From Gammaproteobacteria bacterium (lineage in GTDB: Bacteria > Pseudomonadota > Gammaproteobacteria > Steroidobacterales > Steroidobacteraceae), in NCBI GenBank assembly GCA_030037905.1, contig JASHPX010000111.1, positions 1 to 34,537 on the forward strand: a stretch of DNA of 34,537 bases, given 5' to 3'. Within the stretch, counting starts at the first letter, position 1, and the number at the start of each line of letters is the position of its first letter. The translations under genes and the position numbers were made by a program. The notes under the pieces were generated by a model. That model was not told where the DNA came from, did not search any database, and saw nothing but the letters and a program-made list of their open reading frames with translations. Positions 6,706-27,790 of the stretch are shown here, in pieces.

Positions 6706-8352
6706 ATGCCGCCCGGCATCCCCGCCGACATCCACGCGCACCGCATCCTGATTCTCGACTTCGGCGCCCAGTACACGCAGCTGATCGCGCGGCGCGTACG
6801 CGAGCTGGGCGTGTACTGCGAGATTCATCCCTGGGATGCCACGGATGCGCAGGTACGCGCCTTCGGCGCACGCGGCATCATCCTCTCGGGCGGCCCGGAA
6901 TCGGTGACGGACATTGCGCCGCCGCGCGCCAGCGCGGCCGTGTTCGACTGTGGGGTGCCGGTGCTCGGCATCTGCTACGGCATGCAGACCATGGCGCAGC
7001 AGCTCGGCGGCCGCGTGGCTGGCTCGGGTACGCGCGAGTTCGGTTATGCGCAGCTGCGGCTCACGGCCACCTGCCGCCTGTTCGATGGGATCCTTGATCG
7101 TGAGGGCGGCAGCGGGAGCGCAGGCGCGTGCGGCGGCGAGGGCGCGAGCGGCGGCGAGACGGCGCATGGGGCGCTCGCGCTGCTCGACGTGTGGATGAGT
7201 CATGGCGATCGCGTTGAGACTCTGCCACCGGGCTTCGTGGCGGTGGCGAGCACGGCGGATGCGCCCGTGGCTGCGATGGCCGATGAGCGGCGGCGCTTCT
7301 ACGGCGTGCAGTTTCACCCGGAGGTCACGCACACCCCACGGGGCGCCGCGCTGCTCGAGCGCTTCGTGCGCGAGATCTGCGGCTGTGACGCGCTGTGGAC
7401 GGCCGGTAACATCATCGACGAGCTCATCGGCCGCGTGCGCAGCCAGGTCGGTGATGCTCGCGTGCTGCTCGGCCTCTCGGGCGGCGTGGATTCCTCGGTG
7501 GTCGCAGCGCTGCTGCACCGGGCGATCGGCGCGCAGCTGACCTGCGTGTTCGTCGATCACGGTCTGCTGCGCCTCGGCGAGGCCGATCAGGTCATGGCGA
7601 CCTTCGCGGGCTCGCTGGGCGTCCAGGTGATCCGCGTGGACGCCGCCGAGCGCTTCCTCGCGGCGCTCGCGGGTCAGAGCGATCCCGAGACCAAGCGCAA
7701 GCTCGTCGGAGCGCTGTTCGTCGAGGTATTCGAGGAGCAGGCGCGGCTCATCGGCGATGCGCGCTTTCTCGCCCAGGGAACCATCTATCCGGACGTGATC
7801 GAGTCGGCCGGCGCGCGCACCGGCAAGGCTCACGTCATCAAATCGCATCACAACGTCGGCGGCCTGCCGGCGCAGCTGCGCCTGCAGCTCGTCGAGCCGC
7901 TGCGCGAGCTGTTCAAGGACGAGGTGCGGCGGATCGGCGTCGAGCTCGGCCTGCCGCACGACATGATCCACCGCCATCCCTTTCCGGGACCGGGGCTCGC
8001 GGTGCGCATCCTCGGGGAGGTGCGTCCGGAGTATGCGCAGCTGCTGCGCCGGGCCGACCATATCTTCATCGAAGAGCTGCGCCGCCACGGCCTGTACGAG
8101 CGCACCAGCCAGGCGTTTGCCGTGTTCCTGCCGGTGCGCTCGGTGGCGGTCATGGGTGATGGGCGACGCTACGAGCACGTCATCGCGCTGCGCGCCGTGC
8201 AGACCGTAGACTTCATGACCGCACAGTGGGCGCACCTGCCCTACGAATTCCTCGAGCTGGTGTCCCGCCGCATCGTCAACGAGCTGCCGGGCGTGTCGCG
8301 CGTGGTCTACGACATCTCGGGCAAGCCGCCGGCGACGATAGAGTGGGAGTGA
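6706..8352 (+). CDS. guaA: GMP synthase (glutamine-hydrolysing)
   Basis: GuaA converts XMP to GMP using ATP and glutamine. ATG 6706 gives 548 aa; GTG 6682 is possible. The class I glutamine amidotransferase domain shows [20 protein letters not shown], the nucleophile Cys in GICYGMQ and the His/Glu pair in QFHPEVTHT. The PP-loop ATP pyrophosphatase domain has [17 protein letters not shown], and the C-terminal dimerisation domain includes [15 protein letters not shown] and ends [10 protein letters not shown] Gly/Ser/Ala-rich stretch (~residues 129-147, [18 protein letters not shown]) is inserted in the amidotransferase domain relative to E. coli GuaA and probably forms a surface loop. The last codons plus stop form one copy of the 19-bp repeat bounding the downstream island. 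Confidence 0.97.
8334..8352 (+). repeat. Left attachment-site repeat (attL-like), inside guaA
   Basis: GACGATAGAGTGGGAGTGA is identical to 11553-11571. With one mismatch the match extends 4 bases to the left (CGG then a mismatched base). It encodes the last residues of GuaA and its stop codon, so integration here leaves guaA intact. Confidence 0.75.
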
Positions 8353-11552: not shown

Positions 11553-11571
11553 GACGATAGAGTGGGAGTGA
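11553..11571 (+). repeat. Right attachment-site repeat (attR-like)
   Basis: A second perfect copy of GACGATAGAGTGGGAGTGA, here outside any gene and preceded by CGGA. It marks the right edge of the guaA island. The 54 bases from here to the end of the toxin gene at 11626 hold nothing recognisable. Confidence 0.75.
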
Positions 11572-11625: not shown

Positions 11626-12141
11626 TCACGGTGGCGCGAGTGCCCTCGCAATGGTGTCCAGATGCATAAAGAGGCGCAGAGGGGCGCTCGGGAACGGAAT
11701 GAAGCCGTGCGTCTGGTAGTAGGCTGCGGACCTCTCATGCTTTGCATCGACGACCAACACCACCGTGCCCATCGCTTCGGCGTGAGTCAGCACCTTGCTC
11801 ATGGCATCGAGCATCAGGTGCTCCCCGAGCCCCCGACGCTGGCAATTGCGGTCGACCGCTAAGCGTCCGAGGAGAGCCGCGGGGACATCGGGGTAACGCG
11901 GAAGCTTCTTGGTCAGCTCTGGCGGCAAGTCAGGGAGATGGACCGAGTATGCCGAGAGCGTATAGTAGCCGCGGATAGTGGCTCGGTTCTCAGGGTGGGG
12001 AAGCACCCAACAGACGCTCACGCGTCGGTCTTGATCCTGTCGGGCCTGCTGCTTCAGGAACTGATTGAGTGCCTCATCGCCGCAATCAAAAGCCCCTCGG
12101 TCGTGTGCTGATCCGAGGGGCTCTGTGGGAGGGTGAGCCAA
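11626..12141 (-). CDS. GNAT-type acetyltransferase toxin (TacT/AtaT-like)
   Basis: A 171-aa N-acetyltransferase. It shows the early FDCGDEALNQFLKQQARQDQ segment typical of GNAT toxins, then the acetyl-CoA pyrophosphate-binding motif in LGRLAVDRNCQRRGLGEHLM (R-R-x-G-L-G), and a late catalytic-type Tyr in ERSAAYYQTHGFIPFP. Toxins of this family acetylate the amino group of charged aminoacyl-tRNAs and block translation. The start appears to be TTG 12141, giving an N-terminus that aligns with the family; no in-frame ATG lies upstream within the gap. It follows the DUF1778 antitoxin gene by 15 bases on the same strand, the normal order. tRNA specificity cannot be read from sequence alone. Confidence 0.88.
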   Translation of the reverse strand: MAHPPTEPLGSAHDRGAFDCGDEALNQFLKQQARQDQDRRVSVCWVLPHPENRATIRGYYTLSAYSVHLPDLPPELTKKLPRYPDVPAALLGRLAVDRNCQRRGLGEHLMLDAMSKVLTHAEAMGTVVLVVDAKHERSAAYYQTHGFIPFPSAPLRLFMHLDTIARALAPP

Positions 12142-12156
12142 GGGCGGGCGGCGCGT

Positions 12157-12444
12157 TTACCGATGCTCGTGGGTCGCCTCTCGGTAGCGAGCTGCGGCTG
12201 CACGCAGCCGGTCATTGGGCGCTGCCGGGGCGAGCATCGCGGCGACGAACGCTTCGCGGTCGCGTGCATCCGTGAGCATCATGCCCTCATAACGCTGAAT
12301 GGTCTCACGGGCCGCCTCGCAGGCCGCACTCACGACGAAGTCCGTGAGTTTGCGGCCGCTCAATTCTGCGGCTCGCTCCAAAGAGCGCTTATCCTCGGGC
12401 CGAATGCGCGCCTCCAGGCGTTCAAGCTTCACAGCAGTGCTCAT
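12157..12444 (-). CDS. DUF1778 (ribbon-helix-helix) antitoxin
   Basis: A 95-aa antitoxin partner of the GNAT toxin. The N-terminal RHH DNA-binding part reads KLERLEARIRPEDKRSLERA followed by AELSGRKLTDFVVSAACEAA, the DUF1778/TacA signature. The C-terminal ETIQRYEGMMLTDARDREAF segment is the toxin-neutralising helix. The start ATG 12444 is preceded by AAGGAGAGG, a strong ribosome-binding site. A perfect palindrome 24-48 bases upstream is the likely autoregulatory operator. Antitoxin in excess would be favoured by the strong site here versus the weak TTG start of the toxin (inference). Confidence 0.92.
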   Translation of the reverse strand: MSTAVKLERLEARIRPEDKRSLERAAELSGRKLTDFVVSAACEAARETIQRYEGMMLTDARDREAFVAAMLAPAAPNDRLRAAAARYREATHEHR

Positions 12445-12660: not shown

Positions 12661-13188
12661 GTGCCTGGCGAATACCTGGTGCACCTGATATGCGGCTCCA
12701 CGGGCTCCGGGAAGACCACATATGCACGTGAGCTCACCGAGCGCATCGGTGGCGTTCGCTTTTCGATCGACGAGTGGATGTCGACGCTGTTCTGGATGGA
12801 TACGCCCAAGCCGCTCGAGGCGGCTTGGTCCATGCAGCGCGTCGAGCGTTGCCTCAGTCAAGTCTGGGACGTCGCCCGCCAGGTCGCATCACGCGGGATT
12901 GCGTGCGTAATGGACTTGGGGTTCACTCAGGCGAGCGTTCGGCACCGTTTCTACCGGCTCGCGGCGGAGTCGGGTCTGTTCCTTCAATTGCACGTGCTCG
13001 ATGCGCCAGCCGCGGAGCGTTGGCGACGAATCGAGACACGTAACCGGGAGAAAGGGGCGAGCTATAACCTCCCGTTCGATGTCAACCGTGAAATGTTCGA
13101 CTTCGTGGAGAGACTCTGGGAGCCACCCACCGAGGAAGAAATCGCCGCCCACACCGGCATCAGGCTTCCGGCGGAGCGGGCTGGGTAA
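12661..13188 (+). CDS. P-loop kinase-like ATP-binding protein (AAA_33 type)
   Basis: A 175-aa protein with start GTG 12661, preceded by GAGGAGGGG. Walker A is LICGSTGSGKTTYARELTER (residues ~8-27). A conserved Asp follows in RFSIDEWMSTLFWMD, an equivalent of the substrate-binding DE motif. The second conserved segment is GIACVMDLGFTQASVRHRFY, and the lid region is RWRRIETRNREKG. This pattern matches small nucleoside/aminoglycoside/zeta-like kinases annotated AAA_33. The substrate is unknown. It stands alone between the toxin-antitoxin pair and the GHKL ATPase and is convergent with the latter (59 bases apart). Zeta-type toxicity or simple metabolite/antibiotic phosphorylation are both possible. 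Confidence 0.85.
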   Translation: MPGEYLVHLICGSTGSGKTTYARELTERIGGVRFSIDEWMSTLFWMDTPKPLEAAWSMQRVERCLSQVWDVARQVASRGIACVMDLGFTQASVRHRFYRLAAESGLFLQLHVLDAPAAERWRRIETRNREKGASYNLPFDVNREMFDFVERLWEPPTEEEIAAHTGIRLPAERAG

Positions 13189-13247: not shown

Positions 13248-15092
13248 TCAGCCCGCTTTCAGCTTCTCCTCGACATAGAGAGACAATTCGATCATCCGCT
13301 CCGCGACCTGCGCTGGCGACAGTCCTGGAAAGTTCTTGAGCACGAGCTCCTTGACGTACAGACGCACGAGATAGCGTAGCTGCAGCGCCCGATTGCGGGT
13401 CGCGAAGACGAAATCCCGGTGTCCATTGTTGACGACGATGAGATTGCGCTCGGCATCGTACCGCGAGCGCCACAGCTCGCCGGCGGCCCGCTCGAAGGTG
13501 TACCCGGGCAGCCCGCGCGCATTGACGACAGTGGGCGCGATTGCCGCCTCGAGGCTTGCGGTCACCGTGATCAGCGCCTCGGCTTGGCAGGAAGTCTCGC
13601 GCTGCGAGACGGTCACGGCGAGCCGCACGAGCCCAGGGGAGGAGGGCGCCTGATACATCACCTCCTGATCGGAGGTGCCTGACTGCGTCCCGCCGCCTTC
13701 GAGGATTTTCCAGCGAAACGACAGGTCTTGCTCGACCCGCCGGCGCGATCGATCGCGCGGCAACGCCCGGAATCGCCGGGTATCGCCGATGGCCACGGTA
13801 CTGGCTGCCGGTGAGATCACCACGCTGTGCAGGGGACCTGCGAACTCGAAGAATTGCCGCTGCCCGGTCGCCTCCGACCCTTCGGGCTCCGGCACACCCG
13901 GCGTCGACGTGGCCCCGTCACCCTGAGCGAGTGCCTCCGCGGGCTCGGCCGAGGGGCTCGAGCCGGTCGACTCCCGACCTCGCGCCTGGATGTCGAACCA
14001 GTCGTACTCCTCGGGCGGCAGTGCAAGCATCGCTTCGCGAAACGCGCGCTGGATCGCCCGCAGCGATTCGCGGTTCGCCTGTTCCTCCTCGGCTCGCTGC
14101 TGCGCATCGATGAGCGCGTTGAGGTGCTCCTCGAGAGGCCCGAGCGCCGCCACGAACGCGGCGTAGCGCTCGTCGTGCACGATGCCGGAGCGCGTTCCGG
14201 GCGTGAGGTTCAGGTAGGGCACGTCGATGAGGCCCTGCAGGTAGCGGGAGGTCCAGGGAGCATGCTCGAGGCCGGGAAGGATGGCCAGATCCTCGAGCAC
14301 GCGCGTGCCGAGGCGCGTCAGGGCCACCCGACAGGTCTCTGCCGGCTCGGTGAGATAAAGCTCGGCGTAAGCTTCCCCGAACGCCGTGCGTACCGCTGGC
14401 AGTTGGTGCAGCAGTCGCCCCTCGAATTGCCGTGGCTCGACCTCGTACTGCTTGCGCGCCAGCCGATCGATCACGCTCACGCGCACGCCCGACTGGCGGA
14501 TGCGGTCGCGCAGCTCGGAGGCGAGATACCACTGGATTTTCTCGCCGCTGAGCGCGCGGATGCCCTCCAGGAGCGGCGCGATGCGCAGCTCCGTGCCACG
14601 TTCGGCAAACAGCGTCCGCCGCGTGCTCACACGGTAGCGCGGATCGCCCTTGTGCATGAGCATCTGATAGGCGCGCTGATCGGTCCCGGTGGACGTCATG
14701 CACAGCGTGTCACCCACCGTCCAGAACGAGAGCAGGCCGATCCCAAACTCGCCCTGCACCCCTGTGCCGGCACCGCCGGCTTTCAGACGGCGCTTGATCG
14801 AATCACAGATGTGAGTCGCGACGTACTTGAAGTCGGGCAATCCGTCTGCATCGCGTGGCACGCCGTCGCCGTCATCCTTGACGGCCAGATAGTGCTCGCC
14901 GTGCTCGCGCCCACGCATAATGGTGACGGTCTTCGCATGCGCGTCGATCGCGTTCTCGACGAACTCGGCGATCGCCTTGAGCGGATTGCTCTGGGAGAGC
15001 GCGATGATGCGAATCGCGTTCCAGTCATCGCCGATGCGCAGCTTGCCGCCGTCGGCATCCTGGGCGCGGTGAGCTTTGGAACGTGGGCTCAT
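13248..15092 (-). CDS. GHKL-family ATPase with an internal Ig-like segment
   Basis: A 614-aa protein from ATG 15092. The Bergerat ATP-binding fold is complete: N-box EFVENAIDAH (E46, N47), G1 box DDGDGVP (74-79) and G2 box GVQGEFGIGLLSFW (111-124). A transducer-like domain follows (~150-340), then a helical, Gln/Glu-rich stretch (~345-385) and a Ser/Pro/Glu linker. Residues ~425-510 (SVVISPAASTVAIGDTRRFR; LSFRWKILEGG; LVRLAVTVSQRE; ALITVTASL) read as a bacterial Ig-like beta-sandwich. The end (ELWRSRYDAERNLIVVNNGH to the C-terminus) is a conserved-looking helical module. MORC/MutL/Hsp90-type GHKL proteins occur in bacterial defence operons; that role here is inference. The start overlaps the stop of a truncated upstream frame (ATGA). 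Confidence 0.85.
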   Translation of the reverse strand: MSPRSKAHRAQDADGGKLRIGDDWNAIRIIALSQSNPLKAIAEFVENAIDAHAKTVTIMRGREHGEHYLAVKDDGDGVPRDADGLPDFKYVATHICDSIKRRLKAGGAGTGVQGEFGIGLLSFWTVGDTLCMTSTGTDQRAYQMLMHKGDPRYRVSTRRTLFAERGTELRIAPLLEGIRALSGEKIQWYLASELRDRIRQSGVRVSVIDRLARKQYEVEPRQFEGRLLHQLPAVRTAFGEAYAELYLTEPAETCRVALTRLGTRVLEDLAILPGLEHAPWTSRYLQGLIDVPYLNLTPGTRSGIVHDERYAAFVAALGPLEEHLNALIDAQQRAEEEQANRESLRAIQRAFREAMLALPPEEYDWFDIQARGRESTGSSPSAEPAEALAQGDGATSTPGVPEPEGSEATGQRQFFEFAGPLHSVVISPAASTVAIGDTRRFRALPRDRSRRRVEQDLSFRWKILEGGGTQSGTSDQEVMYQAPSSPGLVRLAVTVSQRETSCQAEALITVTASLEAAIAPTVVNARGLPGYTFERAAGELWRSRYDAERNLIVVNNGHRDFVFATRNRALQLRYLVRLYVKELVLKNFPGLSPAQVAERMIELSLYVEEKLKAG

Positions 15093-17841: not shown

Positions 17842-18885
17842 ATGACCCTCGCCGACAGCAAGCTCGCGCGCCAGCCGCAGGCGTTGTGGGTGCGCCGGGC
17901 ACTGTTCCAGCTGCACCTGTGGACGGGGCTCGGTTTCGGTCTTTATATCTGCATGATCAGCCTGTCGGGCAGTGCCATCGTGTTCAGGCATGAGATGGAC
18001 CGGGCGCTCTGCCCGCAGATCATCATGGTCAAGCCGTCCGGACCGCGCATGAGTGATGCGCAGCTCGCTGCCGCCGCGAGACGCTCGTTCCGGCGATTCC
18101 CGCGTGCCAACGTACAGATCGAGGTGCGTGGGCCACGCGTGCCCGGCGCCGCCGTCGAAGTCTGGTATCTCTTCCGGCGAGATCGTATCGAACGGTTGCT
18201 TGACCCGTATACCGGCAAGGACCTGGGGGACGCCACGGCCTGCGAGCCGGGCTTCGTTGCAGGCCTTGCCGATCTGCACGATAACCTCATGGGCGGAACG
18301 ACCGGTCTTGCTTTCAACGGTATCGGCGCGGTGCTGCTGACGCTGATGTGCCTGACCGGCGCGGTGATCTGGTGGCCGGGGACCGCGCGCTGGCGGCGCA
18401 GCCTGACTCTGCGACGCAACGTCCACTGGCGGCGCTTCGTTTGGGACCTGCACGGCGTCGTGGGCTTCTGGATGTTCGCTCTGATCCTGATGTGGGCGGT
18501 GTCGGGTATCTACCTCGCGTTTCCGAACTCCTTTTACGATGTCGGCGATTTTCTGGTCGCACATGGCGCGAGCCGGGCCACTCCGCACAGAATCGACGTT
18601 CTCATCGATTGGCTCGTGCGCCTGCATTTCGGCCGTACCTTCGGTCTGTGGGCCAAGGTGCTGTGGGTGATCCTGGGGCTCATCCCGTGCGCGCTGATCG
18701 TCACGGGCGCCCTGATGTGGTGGAATCGCGTACTGCGCAAGGTCATGGGCCGCTCCGGGGAGCTCATCGGCGCAGTTCCCACATCGCCGGCTACTCCTGC
18801 GCTCGCACCGACCGATGCAACGAGCGCGAACGGCGGGTTGCCCGCAGGTACCGCGGTATCCGCTGCCGCACACGCTCCACTCTGA
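17842..18885 (+). CDS. PepSY-associated transmembrane protein
   Basis: A 347-aa inner-membrane protein from ATG 17842. Four TM helices are apparent: LWTGLGFGLYICMISLSGSA, GAVLLTLMCLTGAVIWWPG, HGVVGFWMFALILMWAVSGI and LWVILGLIPCALIVTGALMW. Conserved His residues at helix starts (QLHLWTG, LHDNLMGG, DLHGVVGFW, LHFGRTFGLW) are the hallmark of the PepSY_TM family and are proposed heme or metal ligands. Family members are often Fur-regulated and linked to siderophore-iron reduction. The C-terminal ~40 residues are a low-complexity Ala/Thr/Pro tail. The end overlaps the proposed ligD start by 71 bases, so PepSY and ligD may be cotranscribed. Confidence 0.87.
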   Translation: MTLADSKLARQPQALWVRRALFQLHLWTGLGFGLYICMISLSGSAIVFRHEMDRALCPQIIMVKPSGPRMSDAQLAAAARRSFRRFPRANVQIEVRGPRVPGAAVEVWYLFRRDRIERLLDPYTGKDLGDATACEPGFVAGLADLHDNLMGGTTGLAFNGIGAVLLTLMCLTGAVIWWPGTARWRRSLTLRRNVHWRRFVWDLHGVVGFWMFALILMWAVSGIYLAFPNSFYDVGDFLVAHGASRATPHRIDVLIDWLVRLHFGRTFGLWAKVLWVILGLIPCALIVTGALMWWNRVLRKVMGRSGELIGAVPTSPATPALAPTDATSANGGLPAGTAVSAAAHAPL

Positions 18886-21691
18886 CGGGTTCGCGGATAT
18901 CCAACGCAAGCAGGACAAACTTCAGGGGCGAAGCGCTGCGGCGGGCAGCCCCGCTCTGCAGCGCTATTCGTCCAAGCGCGCATTCGCGCGCACCCCCGAG
19001 CCTCCACCGAGACTGGCCGCGGCACGCACCGGGCCGCTGCTGTTCGTCGTGCAGAAGCATGCCGCCAGTCACTTGCATTACGACCTGCGGCTCGAGCTCG
19101 ATGGAGTGCTGAAGTCCTGGGCGGTTCCCAAGGGACCTACCGTCGCGCTGGGCATGCGCAGGCTCGCCGTGCAGGTCGAGGATCATCCATTCGACTATGC
19201 GTCCTTCGAGGGCGTCATCGCGGCCGGTGAATACGGCGGCGGCAAGGTCATCGTCTGGGACGGCGGCGTGTATTCGCCGGAAGAGGAGGGCGCGAGCGAC
19301 GGGCAACACTGGTTCGAGCAGCGCTCCGAAGCTGAGAGCCGCGTACGTGCGGCACTGGAACGCGGCAAGCTGAACCTGTTCCTGTGCGGAGAGAAGCTCA
19401 AGGGTTCCTTCGCGTTGGTGCGTACCTCGACGGCCAAGCAATGGTTGCTGCTGAAGCACGAGGATCGCTTCGCCGACGGCGCCGATGTGCTCTCGCAGCG
19501 CGAGTCGATTCTCTCGAGCGCTGCGGTCGAGGACGTGGTCGCTGGACCGCCCGGCGCGCGGCTGGATGCCGAGCGGCTCACTCCCCACGGACCGTCCGAG
19601 CCCATGCCCTCGAGGCTCGCGCCCATGCTTGCCGAGGCGAGCAGCACGGCCGACTTCGATGCAGGCTGGCTGGCTGAGCCGAAGCTGGACGGCTATCGCG
19701 TCATCGCGCATGTCGCACAGGGAGCCGTGCGCCTCATCTCGCGCCGTGGCCTGGACCTCACCGCCGCCTTTCCCGAGATCGTCGCAGAGTTTGCCGGCCA
19801 GGTGGCGTCGATGATCGTCGATGGCGAGCTGGTCGCCTTGGCGAGCGACGGCCGTCCGTCCTTCAATGCCCTGCAGAATCGCGTGCAGCTCAAAGCCCCA
19901 AAGGACATCGAGCGAGCGCAGCGCGAAACACCGGTGGTGTTCGTCGCCTTCGACATCCTGCACTTCGCCGGCATCGATCTGCGCGGCTCGCCCTACGCGG
20001 ACCGCCGGCGCTACCTGCGGCAGTGCCTGCTTCCCTCATCGCGGCTGCAGGTCGTGCACGTCTCGACCGATGCGAAGGCATTGTATGCCGCGGCGCTCAG
20101 CGCCGGGTTCGAGGGCATCGTCGCCAAGCGCATCGACAGCCGCTACGAGCCCGGCAGGCGCTCGCCGGCCTGGCGCAAGGTCAAGCGGGTACAGACGGCC
20201 GAATTCGTCGTCGGAGGCTACACGCGCGGTAAGGGCGCGCGCGAGCCGCTCGGGGCTCTGCTGCTCGGGTTCTGGCGCGGCGATACATTGGTCTATTGTG
20301 GTCACGTCGGCTCGGGGCTCGATGAGCGCACGCTGGTAGATCTGGGCAGGCGCTTTACAGCGCTGCGACGCCGGAAGTCGCCGTTTGCGCAACAGCCGTC
20401 GCTGCACCGTCCGACCACGTGGCTCGAACCCCGGCTGGTCGTGGAAGTGAGCTTTGCCGAGCGAACGCCGGACGGCATGCTGCGCGCTCCCGTGCTCATC
20501 CGCGTGCGCACCGACGTCACGGCCGACAGCGTGCGGCAGGATGCGGTGGCGGACGATCCGCCCCCGCCGAGCTCCGGGCCGTCGCGCACGACAGGCGATG
20601 AGATCGCCACGGTGCTCGAGCAGCTGCGGGGCAAGGACAACCGGCTCGATCTGGTTGCGCTCGACTGGCGCGTACGCGTGACTCATCTCGATCGCGTCTA
20701 CTGGCCCGCCGGCCAGCGTGCAGCGCGCGGCGCGATCACCAAGCGGGATCTCCTGCGGTACCTCGCGGCAGTATCGCCCTACATGCTGCCACACCTGCAG
20801 GATCGCCCCCTGACGATGATCCGCATGCCCGAGGGCATCGGCGGCGAGCGCTTCTTTCAAAAGCACTGGGATGCGCCGCTGCCGCAGTTCGTGCAGACGG
20901 TACGGGTGTTCTCCGAACATGCGGGTGAAAAGCAGGACTACATCCTCGCCAACAACCTGCCGACGCTGTTGTGGCTCGGGCAGAATGGCACTCTGGAATA
21001 TCACGTCTGGCACTCCCGGGCGCATGTGGATGCAGACGCAGTGAGCCGCAGCACCGACTATTCGGCCTCGCTCGCGGCCATGGAATCCTCGGTGCTGAAT
21101 TACCCCGATTATCTGGTGTTCGATCTGGATCCCTACATCTACTCGGGCAAAGAGGCGCAGGGCGCCGAGCCGGAGCTCAATCGCAGGGGCTTCGCCATGA
21201 CGCGTCGCGTTGCCTTCTGGTTGCGCTCGCTGCTGAAGGAAATGTCGCTCGAGGCAGTCGTGAAGACCTCCGGCAAGACGGGGTTGCATGTGTTCGTGCC
21301 CATCGAGCGGACCGTCACCTTCGACCAGGTGCGCCACATCTGTGAGCTGACAGGCCGGCATCTGCTGCGGGAGCATCCACGCGAGATCACCATGGAATGG
21401 GCCACCGCGCGGCGTACCGGTAAGGTCTTCATCGACCACAACATGAATGTACGTGGCAAAACGCTCAATGTCGCGTACTCGCCACGGGGGCTACCCGGGG
21501 CGCCGGTGTCCATGCCCCTGACCTGGGAGGAGCTGGAGGCGGCCGAACCGGGCGATTTCACGCTGCGTAACGCGATGCAGCGCTTGGAGAAGACCGGAGA
21601 CCGGTGGCATGATGTATTGACCAGGAAACAGAGCCTTGCGCAGGCTTTTGGCGGTACCGGCCGAAGTATTGGCCGAGATCAGGCTCCGTGA
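18815..21691 (+). CDS. ligD: ATP-dependent DNA ligase D (PE-LIG-POL), NHEJ
   Basis: A multifunctional NHEJ enzyme of up to 958 aa. The 3'-phosphoesterase domain comes first (LLFVVQKHAASHLHYDLRLE, then KSWAVPKGP, residues ~75-210, with catalytic His/Asp). The ligase domain follows with nucleophile Lys ~290 in EPKLDGYR, FEGIVAKR and WRKVKR. The primase-polymerase domain is C-terminal (~640-940): YWPAGQRAA, metal-binding DLDP at ~770-773, KTSGKTGLHVF and DHNMNVRGKTLNVAYSPRGL. The domain order is as in Pseudomonas LigD. ATG 18815 overlaps the PepSY gene by 71 bases. No ATG or GTG follows before the PE domain, so this start is accepted with caution. The leader before LQRYSSKRAFARTPEP is not conserved. 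ku follows 22 bases downstream. Confidence 0.95.
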   Translation: MQRARTAGCPQVPRYPLPHTLHSDGFADIQRKQDKLQGRSAAAGSPALQRYSSKRAFARTPEPPPRLAAARTGPLLFVVQKHAASHLHYDLRLELDGVLKSWAVPKGPTVALGMRRLAVQVEDHPFDYASFEGVIAAGEYGGGKVIVWDGGVYSPEEEGASDGQHWFEQRSEAESRVRAALERGKLNLFLCGEKLKGSFALVRTSTAKQWLLLKHEDRFADGADVLSQRESILSSAAVEDVVAGPPGARLDAERLTPHGPSEPMPSRLAPMLAEASSTADFDAGWLAEPKLDGYRVIAHVAQGAVRLISRRGLDLTAAFPEIVAEFAGQVASMIVDGELVALASDGRPSFNALQNRVQLKAPKDIERAQRETPVVFVAFDILHFAGIDLRGSPYADRRRYLRQCLLPSSRLQVVHVSTDAKALYAAALSAGFEGIVAKRIDSRYEPGRRSPAWRKVKRVQTAEFVVGGYTRGKGAREPLGALLLGFWRGDTLVYCGHVGSGLDERTLVDLGRRFTALRRRKSPFAQQPSLHRPTTWLEPRLVVEVSFAERTPDGMLRAPVLIRVRTDVTADSVRQDAVADDPPPPSSGPSRTTGDEIATVLEQLRGKDNRLDLVALDWRVRVTHLDRVYWPAGQRAARGAITKRDLLRYLAAVSPYMLPHLQDRPLTMIRMPEGIGGERFFQKHWDAPLPQFVQTVRVFSEHAGEKQDYILANNLPTLLWLGQNGTLEYHVWHSRAHVDADAVSRSTDYSASLAAMESSVLNYPDYLVFDLDPYIYSGKEAQGAEPELNRRGFAMTRRVAFWLRSLLKEMSLEAVVKTSGKTGLHVFVPIERTVTFDQVRHICELTGRHLLREHPREITMEWATARRTGKVFIDHNMNVRGKTLNVAYSPRGLPGAPVSMPLTWEELEAAEPGDFTLRNAMQRLEKTGDRWHDVLTRKQSLAQAFGGTGRSIGRDQAP

Positions 21692-21713
21692 GGGGCCGCA
21701 TGGAGAGGCAGAT

Positions 21714-22592
21714 ATGGCCGCACGCTCAATCGGCTCGCTCACACTGTCGTTCGGATTGGTCGCGATCCCGGTGAAGCTCTATTCAGCTACCCAATCGGGT
21801 AGCGCGATCTCATTCAACCTGCTGCACAAGGACTGCGGCTCGCGCCTCAAGCAGCAATACATATGCATCCGGCACGGCACGGTCGTGGAACGTGACGAGA
21901 TGGTCAAAGGCTATGAGTTCGCCAAGGACCAATACGTCACGTTCACACCCGAGGAGATCAAGGCCCTGGAAGAGGTCGGCTCGCATTCAGTCGACATTTC
22001 CGAGTTCGTGCCGATCGAGTCGATCGATCCGATGTATTTCGACAAGGTCTACTATCTGGCGCCGGATAAGGGCGCCGCGAAGCCGTACGCTCTCCTGGTG
22101 GAGGCGCTCAACGAAGCGAAGCGCTGCGCTGTGGGTCATTGGGCCTGGCGAGGCAAGGGTTATGTGGTCGCGCTGCGACCGGTCGGCGACGTGCTGACGA
22201 TGCAGCAGCTGCTGTTCGCCTCGGACGTGCGCTCCGTCTCGGAGCTGGAGGTGCCCAAGCAGGAGGTGCGGCCCGCCGAGCTCAAGCTCGCACGGCAGCT
22301 GATCGACCAGCAGTCGGCCGACCATTACGATCCCAGCGCCTATAGGGACGACGTGCGCGCGCGAGTCGAGGCGCAGATTGAAAAGAAGGTCGAGGGCAGG
22401 CAGATTTCCGTAGCCGAAGCTCCGGTGCCGGAAGTCGGTGGCGGCAAGGTGATCGACCTGATGGATGCCCTGCGCGCGAGTCTGGAAAAGACCGAAGCGG
22501 CGCGCGCCTCTGCCCCGCGCATGGAGCCGCGTAAGGGGCCCAAGCGTGTCGAGCGGCCCGCCAAGACGGCGCGCAAGGCCGGCAGGCGGTAG
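21714..22592 (+). CDS. ku: Bacterial Ku protein, NHEJ end-binding
   Basis: A 292-aa Ku homolog from ATG 21714, preceded by GGAGAGGCAG. The core is intact: MAARSIGSLTLSFGLVAIPV, then SISFNLLHKDCGSRLKQQY-type strands, FVPIESIDPMYFDKVYYLAP, and the long Ku bridge (VLTMQQLLFASDVRSVSELE). Bacterial Ku forms a homodimeric ring on DNA ends and recruits LigD. The C-terminal ~45 residues are Lys/Arg-rich (KGPKRVERPAKTARKAGRR), like the basic extensions that bind DNA and let some Ku proteins slide inward. Together with ligD this is a complete two-component repair system. The MerR/TPR gene follows 16 bases later. Confidence 0.96.
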   Translation: MAARSIGSLTLSFGLVAIPVKLYSATQSGSAISFNLLHKDCGSRLKQQYICIRHGTVVERDEMVKGYEFAKDQYVTFTPEEIKALEEVGSHSVDISEFVPIESIDPMYFDKVYYLAPDKGAAKPYALLVEALNEAKRCAVGHWAWRGKGYVVALRPVGDVLTMQQLLFASDVRSVSELEVPKQEVRPAELKLARQLIDQQSADHYDPSAYRDDVRARVEAQIEKKVEGRQISVAEAPVPEVGGGKVIDLMDALRASLEKTEAARASAPRMEPRKGPKRVERPAKTARKAGRR

Positions 22593-26361: not shown

Positions 26362-27636
26362 TTACAGACTCAGGTCGTAATCGTTGCCCCGCTCCCCGGG
26401 GATCTGTGGCTCGGGCTCGGCCTTCTCCGCTGTGTGCTCTGGGCCCTGCTGCCGATAATCCAGCCAGTTACGGATTGCCGTCAGCCGAGCCTCCTCCGGA
26501 GACGCCATCTCCTGGTCGTGAGCTTGGGAGTACGCGCTCGCCAGATCGCCGCCGCTGGCCACCCTCTCGCCAGGCGCCAGTGGTGCCTCGCCATGACCGG
26601 GATGTTCCGCCAATCTTTCCGGTTCCCGTATCGCGGCGCCCTGCGCAGGGGGCAGCCTATGGCTTTGGTCGAATGCATCCGCGATGCCCAGTCGGTCGCG
26701 CAGTGTGCGCCACACCGACTGCGCTCTTGTACGGGCGCGCTCCAGCCAGTGCTCAGCGGTTGAAGCCGGTCCCGCCGGCACCTGCGGGCTCTGGAGCGTT
26801 TTCTGGCCCTGCGCCGGCTGGCTCCGTGCTTGCTGGCCTCGCGCTTGCTGGAGCTGCACTCGTTCGAGCTGCGCTTGCTCGAGCTGCGCGCGATGCTGTG
26901 CGCGGATGCGCTCGGCGACGAAGCTACGCCGCCCCGTCTGCTCGATGTGGTAGGCGATCGATGGCAGCCAAGGCGGGCGCGTCAGGTCAGGGCTCCTCGG
27001 CCGCACGTGTGACACCCGTACATCGAGCCCGGCTTCGCGCAGAGCCTGATTCGACGCCTCCGCCCAGTGTTCTCGCAGCCAGGCCCTCTCTGCGGCCCAG
27101 GACGTCAGTCCGCGTCGGTGCCGCTCGGTACCCGACAGCTCGAGTGCAGCCTTGGGGCCAAGACCGTCCGCGGTCAGCTCGCGCGTGGTACTCAGAAGAT
27201 GCGCATGATAGTTGCGCGCATCACCGCGCGGCGCATGGATTACCAGGTCCACGGCAGTTCCGTAGCGCTCTGCCAGATCGCTTGCGAAGCCCTGCGCAAG
27301 CCGCACACGCTCGGTCTGCCCGAGCTCGTGCGGCAGCGCGAGCGTGAACTCGCGCGCCACCCGCGCATTGGCTCGGGTCTCGGCCCTCTCCGCCGCGTTC
27401 CACAGCGTCGCGCGGCTGCGCGCCCAGTCCATCTCCCGGCCACGCGCTGCCAGCTCGCGCGGAAGGACGATTTCCTTGTGCAGGACGTCGTGCCGGCGGC
27501 GATGATCGTAGGACGCGCCGGTGCGCACATCGCGGATGCGTTCGCCGGCGCGATAGGCCGCAGCGCTGGTCGCGCGGCTGCCGCGACTGCCAGCGTTGCG
27601 GCTGAACGTCTTCATTTTGAAGACGTAGATTGCCAC
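26362..27636 (-). CDS. MobA/MobL-type (MobQ) conjugative relaxase
   Basis: A 424-aa relaxase. GTG 27636 yields the family-typical N-terminus VAIYVFKMKTFSRNAGSRGS, whereas ATG 27615 would remove the first strand. Tyr in ATSAAAYRAGERIRD is the candidate nucleophile. The three-His metal site is IHAPRGDARNYHAHLLSTTR. The conserved ELTADGLGPKAALELS and RRGLTSWAAERAWLREHWAE follow. The C-terminal half (~260-424) is a Gln/Arg/Glu-rich helical region with QLEQAQLERVQLQQARGQQA repeats. MobQ relaxases nick oriT and lead DNA into a recipient. No coupling protein, type IV secretion genes, replication gene or integrase is in view, so this is at best a mobilizable element or its remnant. Confidence 0.9.
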   Translation of the reverse strand: MAIYVFKMKTFSRNAGSRGSRATSAAAYRAGERIRDVRTGASYDHRRRHDVLHKEIVLPRELAARGREMDWARSRATLWNAAERAETRANARVAREFTLALPHELGQTERVRLAQGFASDLAERYGTAVDLVIHAPRGDARNYHAHLLSTTRELTADGLGPKAALELSGTERHRRGLTSWAAERAWLREHWAEASNQALREAGLDVRVSHVRPRSPDLTRPPWLPSIAYHIEQTGRRSFVAERIRAQHRAQLEQAQLERVQLQQARGQQARSQPAQGQKTLQSPQVPAGPASTAEHWLERARTRAQSVWRTLRDRLGIADAFDQSHRLPPAQGAAIREPERLAEHPGHGEAPLAPGERVASGGDLASAYSQAHDQEMASPEEARLTAIRNWLDYRQQGPEHTAEKAEPEPQIPGERGNDYDLSL

Positions 27637-27690
27637 GGCGGAAGCGCTCGTCCTCGATCCTCCGGTAGAGCATCGCAGGCTCGGGCGGGT

Positions 27691-27724
27691 CACGCTGCCG
27701 CAGTAACCGGCGTGTTTGCGCAGA
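27691..27724 (-). other. Candidate oriT upstream of the relaxase gene
   Basis: CACGC and GCGTG form a short inverted repeat (27691-27695 and 27710-27714) enclosing GCAGTAACCGG, followed by TTTGCGCAG. The string AACCGG...TTTGCGC recalls the inverted repeat plus nic region of RSF1010-type MobQ oriT (ACCGGTAAATGCGCC). It lies 55-88 bases upstream of the relaxase start, the expected place. The resemblance is weak and by eye. Confidence 0.3.
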
Positions 27725-27727
27725 AAT

Positions 27728-27790
27728 GGCAGCTTCGGCTGGGATGGGCAGCTCCGGCTGGGGATGGACAGCACTGGCTGGGGTAGGCAG
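27728..27790. repeat. Degenerate ~20-bp tandem repeat upstream of the relaxase
   Basis: Three units related to GGCAGCTTCGGCTGGGAT occur in series (from 27728, 27747 and 27767), e.g. GGCAGCTCCGGCTGGGGAT and GGACAGCACTGGCTGGGGTA. They lie next to the candidate oriT in the 177-base gap between the relaxase and the CPXCG gene. They could be accessory protein sites or neutral repeats. Confidence 0.45.

Follow-up and report, generated by a model that had tools for sequence, protein, structure and literature searches.

Why should a Bergerat-type ATPase carry an immunoglobulin (Ig)-like domain, and what might such a protein do? The question is raised by one gene in a 34,537-nucleotide stretch of gammaproteobacterial DNA (the whole stretch analysed here, hereafter the window), whose product we call GHKL-Ig. 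From sequence alone, the initial annotation described a complete Bergerat ATPase joined to an Ig-like domain, with neither signal peptide nor transmembrane (TM) helix. We find that GHKL-Ig represents an unnamed, transferred family of Hsp90-like GHKL ATPases.

Domain architecture of GHKL-Ig

The gene runs on the minus strand from an ATG at 15092 to a stop at 13248; an alternative GTG start would give a protein of 641 aa. An AlphaFold2 model built from 56 family members (mean pLDDT 73, pTM 0.51), together with the family alignment, suggests the following organization:

13248..15092, minus strand: complete gene for GHKL-Ig (Hsp90-like GHKL ATPase plus Ig-like domain), 614 aa, from its open reading frame, HATPase_c_3 match and near-full-length relatives
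14493..15053, minus strand: Bergerat/GHKL ATP-binding domain, Hsp90-like, residues 14-200, from Pfam, model and invariant motif residues
14163..14492, minus strand: S5/middle-type domain, residues 201-310, from the model, with R301 (identical in 56/56 aligned members) as proposed catalytic arginine
14022..14141, minus strand: single long helix, residues 318-357, a possible coiled coil, from the AlphaFold2 model
13869..14012, minus strand: variable acidic linker, residues ~361-408 (disorder to ~415), predicted disordered with pLDDT <50
13557..13835, minus strand: Ig-like (Big_2-type) beta-sandwich, residues 420-512, from two models and fold matches
13251..13517, minus strand: conserved C-terminal domain, residues 526-614, with a VNNGHRDF motif, modelled at low confidence as strands plus two helices

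The Pfam family HATPase_c_3 matches residues 39-143 (E = 2.2e-10; HATPase_c matched below its cut-off), and E43, N47, D50, D73, G75, G77, the 114-GEFGIGL-120 loop and G166 are invariant in all 56 aligned members. The family carries the N-box, G1 and G2 Bergerat residues that define the GHKL ATPase superfamily, and these residues, the Pfam match and the model agree with the initial annotation that the ATPase is complete.

The Ig-like domain was also confirmed at the level of fold. Residues 421-511 are modelled with confidence as all-beta (pLDDT ~90), and the check by AlphaFold and Foldseek that had been proposed for residues ~425-510 did find an Ig-like fold. In a second model, for which residues 411-614 were folded separately, the 50 Foldseek matches listed include Ig-like domains at E-values of 1.8e-6 to 1.9e-4, LigA and the Ig domain of the lambda tail tube being two of them, and VIA gives Z 11.5 over 88-93 residues at an rmsd of 2.0-2.5 Å, the Big_2 domain 7quz included. 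This is a fold call, since the sequence falls under the Pfam thresholds: the best Ig-type model is PKD (E ~0.005, in 4 of the 56 members), and the 15 families listed for these members at E <= 1 include no Big family.

In a Kyte-Doolittle scan (19-residue mean), hydrophobicity reaches its maximum of 1.41 at residues 505-525, i.e. not at the N-terminus, and no conspicuous TM-like segment or hydrophobic N-terminus is seen. The scan agrees with the annotated lack of signal peptide and TM helix, and GHKL-Ig is apparently a cytosolic protein. A surface or adhesion role, which an Ig domain might suggest, was rejected because no export signal was seen in the same scan.

Mean pairwise identity across the family is 0.71 for the GHKL domain, 0.59 for S5, 0.57 for the helix, 0.29 for the linker (mean net charge -6.4), 0.50 for Ig and 0.70 for the C-terminal domain, 18 of whose 89 residues are invariant. 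By this measure the C-terminal domain is conserved to the same degree as the ATPase motor. Pfam gave no consistent match for it, each family hitting at most 4 of the 56 C-terminal halves, and PADLOC gave none; its best PDB match is insignificant (E = 0.91), and among 299 genomes of the phylum it occurs in the family itself and in no other architecture. The fold matches listed were taken up by the ATPase (full model) or the Ig domain (411-614 model). We also considered a nuclease in this domain and rejected it, there being no consistent match in Pfam, PADLOC, PHROGs or PDB.

Family distribution and relationship to Hsp90

In a collection with one genome per species we found relatives of GHKL-Ig at 143 loci, and kept 80 that align over most of the length, with 52-78% identity and from at least nine phyla. 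Because the whole architecture is conserved in these 80 loci, the combination of ATPase, Ig domain and tail is no fusion accident. The main alignment comprises the window protein plus 55 of the kept loci (56 rows), leaving aside 10 loci with in-frame stops or a frameshift and 15 that are redundant or truncated; a second alignment uses 42 of these rows.

Presence of the family is patchy. Counting its own genome, GHKL-Ig occurs in 3 of 98 related genomes, 9 of 200 genomes of the taxonomic family and 2 of 299 of the phylum; one carrier-rich genus of the family has it in 8 of 58 genomes, and two members of this genus (G563 and G591) have two copies each. In the tree, nine named phyla are represented among 54 labelled rows, the window protein clusters with five Acidobacteriota and one Pseudomonadota rows (SH-aLRT 97), and the labels Pseudomonadota and Acidobacteriota must each change at least 5 times along supported branches. 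Transfer across phyla appears to be the simplest reading of this tree, though misplaced contigs are possible, the records being mostly metagenome bins. No relatives were found in plasmid, phage and viral-contig collections. The host genome carries two further, truncated copies: one (residues 11-141, contig C328) lies downstream of a PHD/PIN-like pair and is followed by an apparent tyrosine recombinase, a label read from translations, and the other (residues 1-28, contig C323) lies downstream of a very similar PIN-like gene, likewise read from its translation. The initial annotation had named homologues confined to core housekeeping loci as evidence against its reading; they lie instead in variable, not fixed, loci, and patchy presence makes a housekeeping role less likely.

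The modelled ATPase of GHKL-Ig is closest in fold to Hsp90/HtpG. With the full model, the 50 Foldseek matches listed are all Hsp90, TRAP1, GRP94 or HtpG (E from 4e-13), in alignments that span ~350-400 columns and both domains but at an rmsd of 14-20 Å; for the N-domain against Hsp90-type structures, VIA gives Z 16.8 over 174 residues at 3.2 Å. The closest solved folds of the Bergerat N-domain, and less firmly of the middle domain, are thus those of Hsp90/HtpG/TRAP1, and the invariant arginine R301 is, by eye, comparably placed. The stretch GLIDVPYLNLTPGTR(301) resembles, again by eye, the part of the Hsp90 middle domain that carries the catalytic arginine. Beyond these domains GHKL-Ig differs from Hsp90/HtpG/TRAP1: the helix, acidic linker, Ig-like domain and orphan C-terminal domain replace the Hsp90 C-terminal dimeriser, PF00183 (Hsp90) has no Pfam match at E <= 0.1, and the NCBIfam model for HSP90 family proteins scores 29.7 bits, below its cut-off of 455.

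Two proteins of phage biology also show partial likeness. The PADLOC model PDLC03968 for TmtA, which we take to be the Tiamat defence protein, matches weakly (E = 0.0012) at residues 34-78; of its 1486 positions, the likeness is restricted to the N-box of the ATPase. Phage rIIA has an Hsp90-like ATPase fold and is among the top viral matches in the predicted structures of BFVD (E ~6e-10), but whole-chain TM-scores are 0.2-0.3, so that it is comparable over part of GHKL-Ig at most.

The prokaryotic MORC/paraMORC1-5 proteins described by Iyer, Abhiman and Aravind (2008; PMC2292703) share with GHKL-Ig a GHKL plus S5-type domain, a sporadic, transferred distribution and a link to superfamily II helicases including SNF2; they are tied to restriction-modification operons with such helicases, which occur in about 70% of MORC neighbourhoods. 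In contrast, the MORC signature of the S5 domain described there (GhXhhpXXRhl) is found in 0/56 GHKL-Ig members, and no restriction-modification operon recurs. SNF2 adjoins the gene in 6/80 loci, many of them on short contigs; it is enriched there, at a rate well under the 70% of MORC. MutL is matched by the ATPase in profile TIGR00585 (30.9 bits, E = 1.3e-7, far below the cut-off of 180) and in the PDB (E = 2e-5). The label 'MORC/MutL-type' of the initial annotation is therefore unsupported, as the MORC motif is absent from 56/56 members; the fold is Hsp90-like, the MutL models score far under their cut-offs, and we rejected membership in either group.

These matches bear on a possible host function, in which GHKL-Ig would be a MutL/MORC-like clamp for DNA repair or DNA superstructure that serves its host and has spread by transfer. 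Apart from the weak MutL matches, it could draw on the SNF2 partner described below, sometimes found beside Pif1 or PrimPol-helicase genes, and on the LigD and Ku genes present in the window. However, the absent MORC motif, the low MutL scores and the patchy presence speak against it, and neither LigD nor Ku is among the 25 commonest neighbour families; we regard such a role as highly improbable.

The architecture of Hsp90-like ATPase, Ig and orphan C-terminal domain was not found in a literature search of open-licence PMC papers. The terms 'immunoglobulin' and 'Ig-like' do not occur in the MORC/paraMORC paper (PMC2292703), and passages from a paper on other HATPase_c_3 proteins make no mention of Ig-like domains (PMC8011034). 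SMCHD1, considered as a GHKL-plus-Ig parallel, was dropped when the search gave no support. The family defined here joins an Hsp90-like motor to an Ig-like domain that is apparently cytosolic and to an orphan C-terminal domain; it is widely transferred and has SNF2 as a candidate partner.

The guaA locus and the neighbours of family members

In the window, GHKL-Ig lies beyond a duplicated attachment (att) site at the 3' end of guaA:

8334..8352, plus strand: attachment-site copy 1, GACGATAGAGTGGGAGTGA, the last 19 bases of guaA
9172..10695, minus strand: AAA_14-DUF4143 ATPase, between the two att copies, from Pfam
11553..11571, plus strand: attachment-site copy 2, an exact 19-bp duplicate of the guaA 3' end (chance expectation 0.00 in 100 shuffles)
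11626..12444, minus strand: TacA antitoxin (12157-12444) and GNAT-family toxin (11626-12141), from Pfam, the toxin termed TacT-like because of its pairing with TacA
12661..13188, plus strand: AAA_33/zeta-toxin-like P-loop kinase, convergent neighbour of GHKL-Ig, from Pfam

Within the 19-bp sequence lies GAGTGGGA, which has been reported as the guaA integration site of GIsul2, an island with an attB of 19 bp (PMC9376610). The window therefore shares with GIsul2-type islands, as described there, a 19-bp att at the guaA 3' end with this core; it differs from them in that no Pfam-named integrase lies between the two att copies, where two of three genes have no family. G+C drops from ~70% to 57-62% over 8.0-13 kb, directly after guaA, whereas the GHKL-Ig gene itself, 1.7 kb past the second att copy, has a G+C of 0.65-0.67, like the rest of the window and unlike this segment. 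As no third att copy occurs in the window within 3 mismatches, the gene is a putative member of a guaA island. No tRNA genes were found in the window.

The 3' side of guaA is also occupied in other genomes, by GHKL-Ig in L029 as in the window, by both GHKL-Ig and SNF2 in L044, and by SNF2 in L123 and L125. No duplicated att was found in these four loci, so that the window alone has the duplicate. At a further locus (recorded as both L051 and L147) GHKL-Ig lies on the 5' side of guaA.

For the neighbours of family members, genes were called by a simple codon-score method, and 126 of 127 listed adjacent genes were compared with 126 of 175 genes lying 4-6 places away. Of 138 Pfam families in the adjacent genes, the 25 commonest include SNF2 (6), the toxin-antitoxin type families PIN (6), Fic (5) and Polbeta (4), and DUF4143 (3); in the distant set PIN occurs twice, and SNF2, Fic and Polbeta, outside the 25 commonest of 161 families, at most twice each. 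The PADLOC models listed for adjacent genes (25 of 202) belong to SNF2-type and other helicase components of known systems: DpdE, ZorD, DrmD, BrxH, HmaA and DrmA. The link to restriction-type operons suggested by the initial annotation is weak, since no nuclease or methylase other than PIN, a toxin nuclease, is among the 25 commonest adjacent families; a helicase link does suit the MORC/paraMORC theme, but it is loose and mostly non-adjacent. We found no conserved operon partner: the largest neighbour cluster, SNF2, covers 7 of ~80 loci if a distant fragment in L074 is counted, and GHKL-Ig has no fixed neighbour.

Such surroundings could fit an Hsp90-like protein that serves a mobile element as chaperone or maintenance factor; it would stabilise the element's proteins or help transfer and have no part in defence. 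The Hsp90-type fold would agree with this, as would neighbours rich in toxin-antitoxin genes, the att duplicate nearby and the recombinase-like gene beside a truncated copy. However, relaxase, type IV secretion (T4SS) and tyrosine-integrase families are absent from the 25 commonest families in the 126 adjacent genes, Resolvase is found in 2/126, TrwB-type neighbours in a single locus (L014), and PF00183 is unmatched. On balance we consider this role unlikely.

Association with SNF2 helicases and a possible role in conflict

The six SNF2 genes adjacent to GHKL-Ig (L009, L025, L044, L045, L053 and L079) come from several phyla, with four pairs divergent and two on the same strand. Their products are 36-88% identical to one another and all have an N-terminal CxC...CxH SWIM-like motif, as read by eye. 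Among 60 related genomes, strong SNF2 matches are confined to G000 (1022 bits) and G016 (480 bits), both carriers of GHKL-Ig, and the others score at most 168 bits. In the genome of the window, the SNF2 gene is on contig C237.

We then compared carriers with other genomes. Fifty carrier genomes were taken from the 80 loci, mostly on longer contigs, and were chosen before the result; the SNF2-adjacent L045 was left out. An SNF2 match of at least 380 bits is present in 21 of the 50 (genome completeness not given), and the remaining 29 reach 187 bits at best. Adjacent loci account for five of the 21, and in 16 SNF2 lies on another contig or ~280 kb away on the same one (G432); since many carrier contigs are short, a place on another contig is compatible with linkage. 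The background is 3/298 phylum genomes (4/299 with our own genome), which against 21/50 gives a Fisher p of 4e-17, with the qualification that it covers one phylum and the carriers several. In the 200 family genomes SNF2 occurs in 6/9 carriers versus 11/191 others (p = 1.1e-5, or 8.6e-5 without our own genome). Outside the carrier-rich genus the counts are 3/3 versus 4/156 (p = 5e-5; without our own genome 2/2, p = 0.0012), and inside it 4/8 versus 8/50, a borderline result (p = 0.049). The carrier and family-genome tests overlap, since several genomes recur in both under two handles (G408=G050, G418=G552, G402=G527, G401=G575, G410=G591). PglZ, a defence marker used as control, is found in 0/9 carriers and 5/191 others; with five positives it is rare and hence a weak control. 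When both draws of 299 genomes are taken as the same, G199, G284 and G213 have SNF2 without GHKL-Ig, and G189 the reverse. The association is real but loose, and it may partly be shared mobile-gene ecology, which may explain much of it given the borderline link within the carrier-rich genus.

From the domains and their conservation, the patchy distribution with signs of transfer in the tree and the statistical co-occurrence with SNF2, all of them observed, we infer an ATP cycle, dimerisation, roles for the Ig and C-terminal domains, and a function in defence; this function and the partnership with SNF2 are put forward as proposals. The reading that we tentatively prefer, at somewhat under an even chance, is that GHKL-Ig, carried on mobile DNA, works as a dimeric clamp or chaperone gated by ATP, in loose partnership with an SNF2 translocase and probably in conflict with phages or mobile elements. 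It is favoured by the invariant ATPase residues, the Hsp90 fold, the patchiness, the SNF2 co-occurrence and the shared location 3' of guaA. ATP would close two Hsp90-like N-terminal domains into a dimer, with R301 of the S5/middle domain sensing or hydrolysing the nucleotide; the long helix and flexible acidic linker would carry the Ig-like domain as a recognition module, and the conserved C-terminal domain might dimerise or dock an effector. Encoded on mobile DNA, the clamp or chaperone would act in a conflict with phages or with mobile elements of other kinds; in many hosts it may do so together with a SWIM-like SNF2 helicase encoded adjacent or elsewhere.

Several observations were counted against this clamp reading. 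The 29 of 50 carriers without strong SNF2 are one, and SNF2 genes having other neighbours of their own (Pif1, PrimPol-helicase) another; so are the att duplicate seen in the window alone, a G+C of the focal gene unlike that of 8.0-13 kb, and the lack of relatives in the plasmid, phage and viral-contig collections.

GHKL-Ig might also be a stand-alone defence or abortive-infection protein, whose Ig domain senses a phage product and whose own C-terminal domain acts, SNF2 being a matter of shared ecology. The lack of a fixed neighbour and the carriers without a strong SNF2 match would agree with this, and a C-terminal domain about as conserved as the ATPase beside a variable Ig domain is as expected of effector and sensor. 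A precedent is VcSduA, described as a Shedu protein with a GHKL N-terminal domain, a DUF4263 nuclease and single-gene phage defence (PMC12137116). Both are single-gene GHKL-type ATPases, and the model given there for VcSduA is a dimeric clamp whose effector is C-terminal. GHKL-Ig differs in having an Ig-like domain, and Pfam finds no DUF4263 nuclease in it, either in the full-length protein or in the C-terminal halves of 56 members. However, if the protein acted alone, neither the 6 loci, from several phyla, in which SNF2 is adjacent nor the co-occurrence between lineages would be explained, and no nuclease or toxin signature appears in the C-terminal domain in Pfam, PADLOC and PDB searches. 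We therefore find it rather unlikely.

The clamp with its SNF2 partner may be extended, as a speculation that we hold to be very unlikely, to an undescribed, split immune system with genes that are usually apart: SNF2 would locate foreign DNA, or a protein bound to DNA, in some hosts alongside a neighbouring Pif1 or PrimPol-helicase; Ig would read a phage structural protein, and ATP-driven closure of the clamp would fire the C-terminal effector. If this is an immune system, its parts co-occur in genomes yet lie mostly apart, and defence discovery based on gene neighbourhoods would miss such cases.

A third component beside SNF2 was also looked for. No neighbour is universal, and two recur. An 847-942 aa fusion protein with an XPB/RadD helicase match (E = 1e-15) lies beside or near SNF2 in L123, L127 and L129; its N-terminal part (residues 152-314) has a second PDB match (E = 7e-8), to chains that we take to be CRISPR-associated primase-polymerases. 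The other recurrent neighbour, a helicase like Pif1 (E = 1e-91), is transcribed divergently from SNF2 in L129 and L130; loci of related genomes contain copies that are 85-91% identical.

Genes adjoining GHKL-Ig and SNF2

In 22 loci, a gene on the same strand lies directly upstream of GHKL-Ig, the gene for the Hsp90-like GHKL ATPase with an Ig-like domain, at a distance of no more than 300 bp; in ten of them (L008, L016, L018, L022, L032, L033, L046, L070, L074 and L081) this upstream gene was assigned by eye as toxin-antitoxin-type. These genes are of the Fic, HigA, PIN, RES, and AbiEii or MNT-like kinds, and are separated from GHKL-Ig by 27-245 bp. Pfam counts for adjacent genes agree with the by-eye calls for PIN, Fic, and Polbeta. 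In another locus, L014, the upstream gene (2-1747) codes for a TrwB/TraG-type conjugation coupling protein, a hint that the genome may contain a conjugative element.

Beside SNF2, the SWIM-like helicase that is a candidate partner of GHKL-Ig, three loci have a fusion of primase-polymerase-like and XPB/RadD-like helicase domains, and two, together with close relatives, a Pif1-like helicase:

L123 10842-13382, fusion
L127 10985-13188, fusion
L129 2961-5786, fusion
L129 5786-8317, Pif1-like helicase
L130 10425-12947, Pif1-like helicase

Truncated copies and record labels

The host genome contains two additional, truncated GHKL-Ig N-termini:

L002, contig C328, 1380-1772
L003, contig C323, 359-442

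Each is preceded by a PIN-like toxin gene, very similar in the two loci, and one is followed by a tyrosine-recombinase-like gene, an arrangement that suggests recombination at the GHKL-Ig gene in this genome.

L071 is a MAG contig whose record title reads Bordetella parapertussis, a label that may be wrong; its protein groups beside a betaproteobacterial one in the GHKL-Ig family tree.

Other elements of the window

8334-8352 and 11553-11571, exact 19-bp duplicates of the guaA 3' end
18815-22592, LigD then Ku
26362-27774, MobA/MobL relaxase

The 19-bp copies, probably attL and attR of an island of the type of the guaA-integrating GIsul2, enclose a 3.2-kb insert of low G+C with an AAA_14-DUF4143 gene; no integrase was recognised among the genes between them. 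LigD, with ligase, phosphoesterase, and primase-polymerase domains, and Ku are a bacterial end-joining pair. The relaxase region, a possible second mobile element, is adjoined by apparent catabolic genes.
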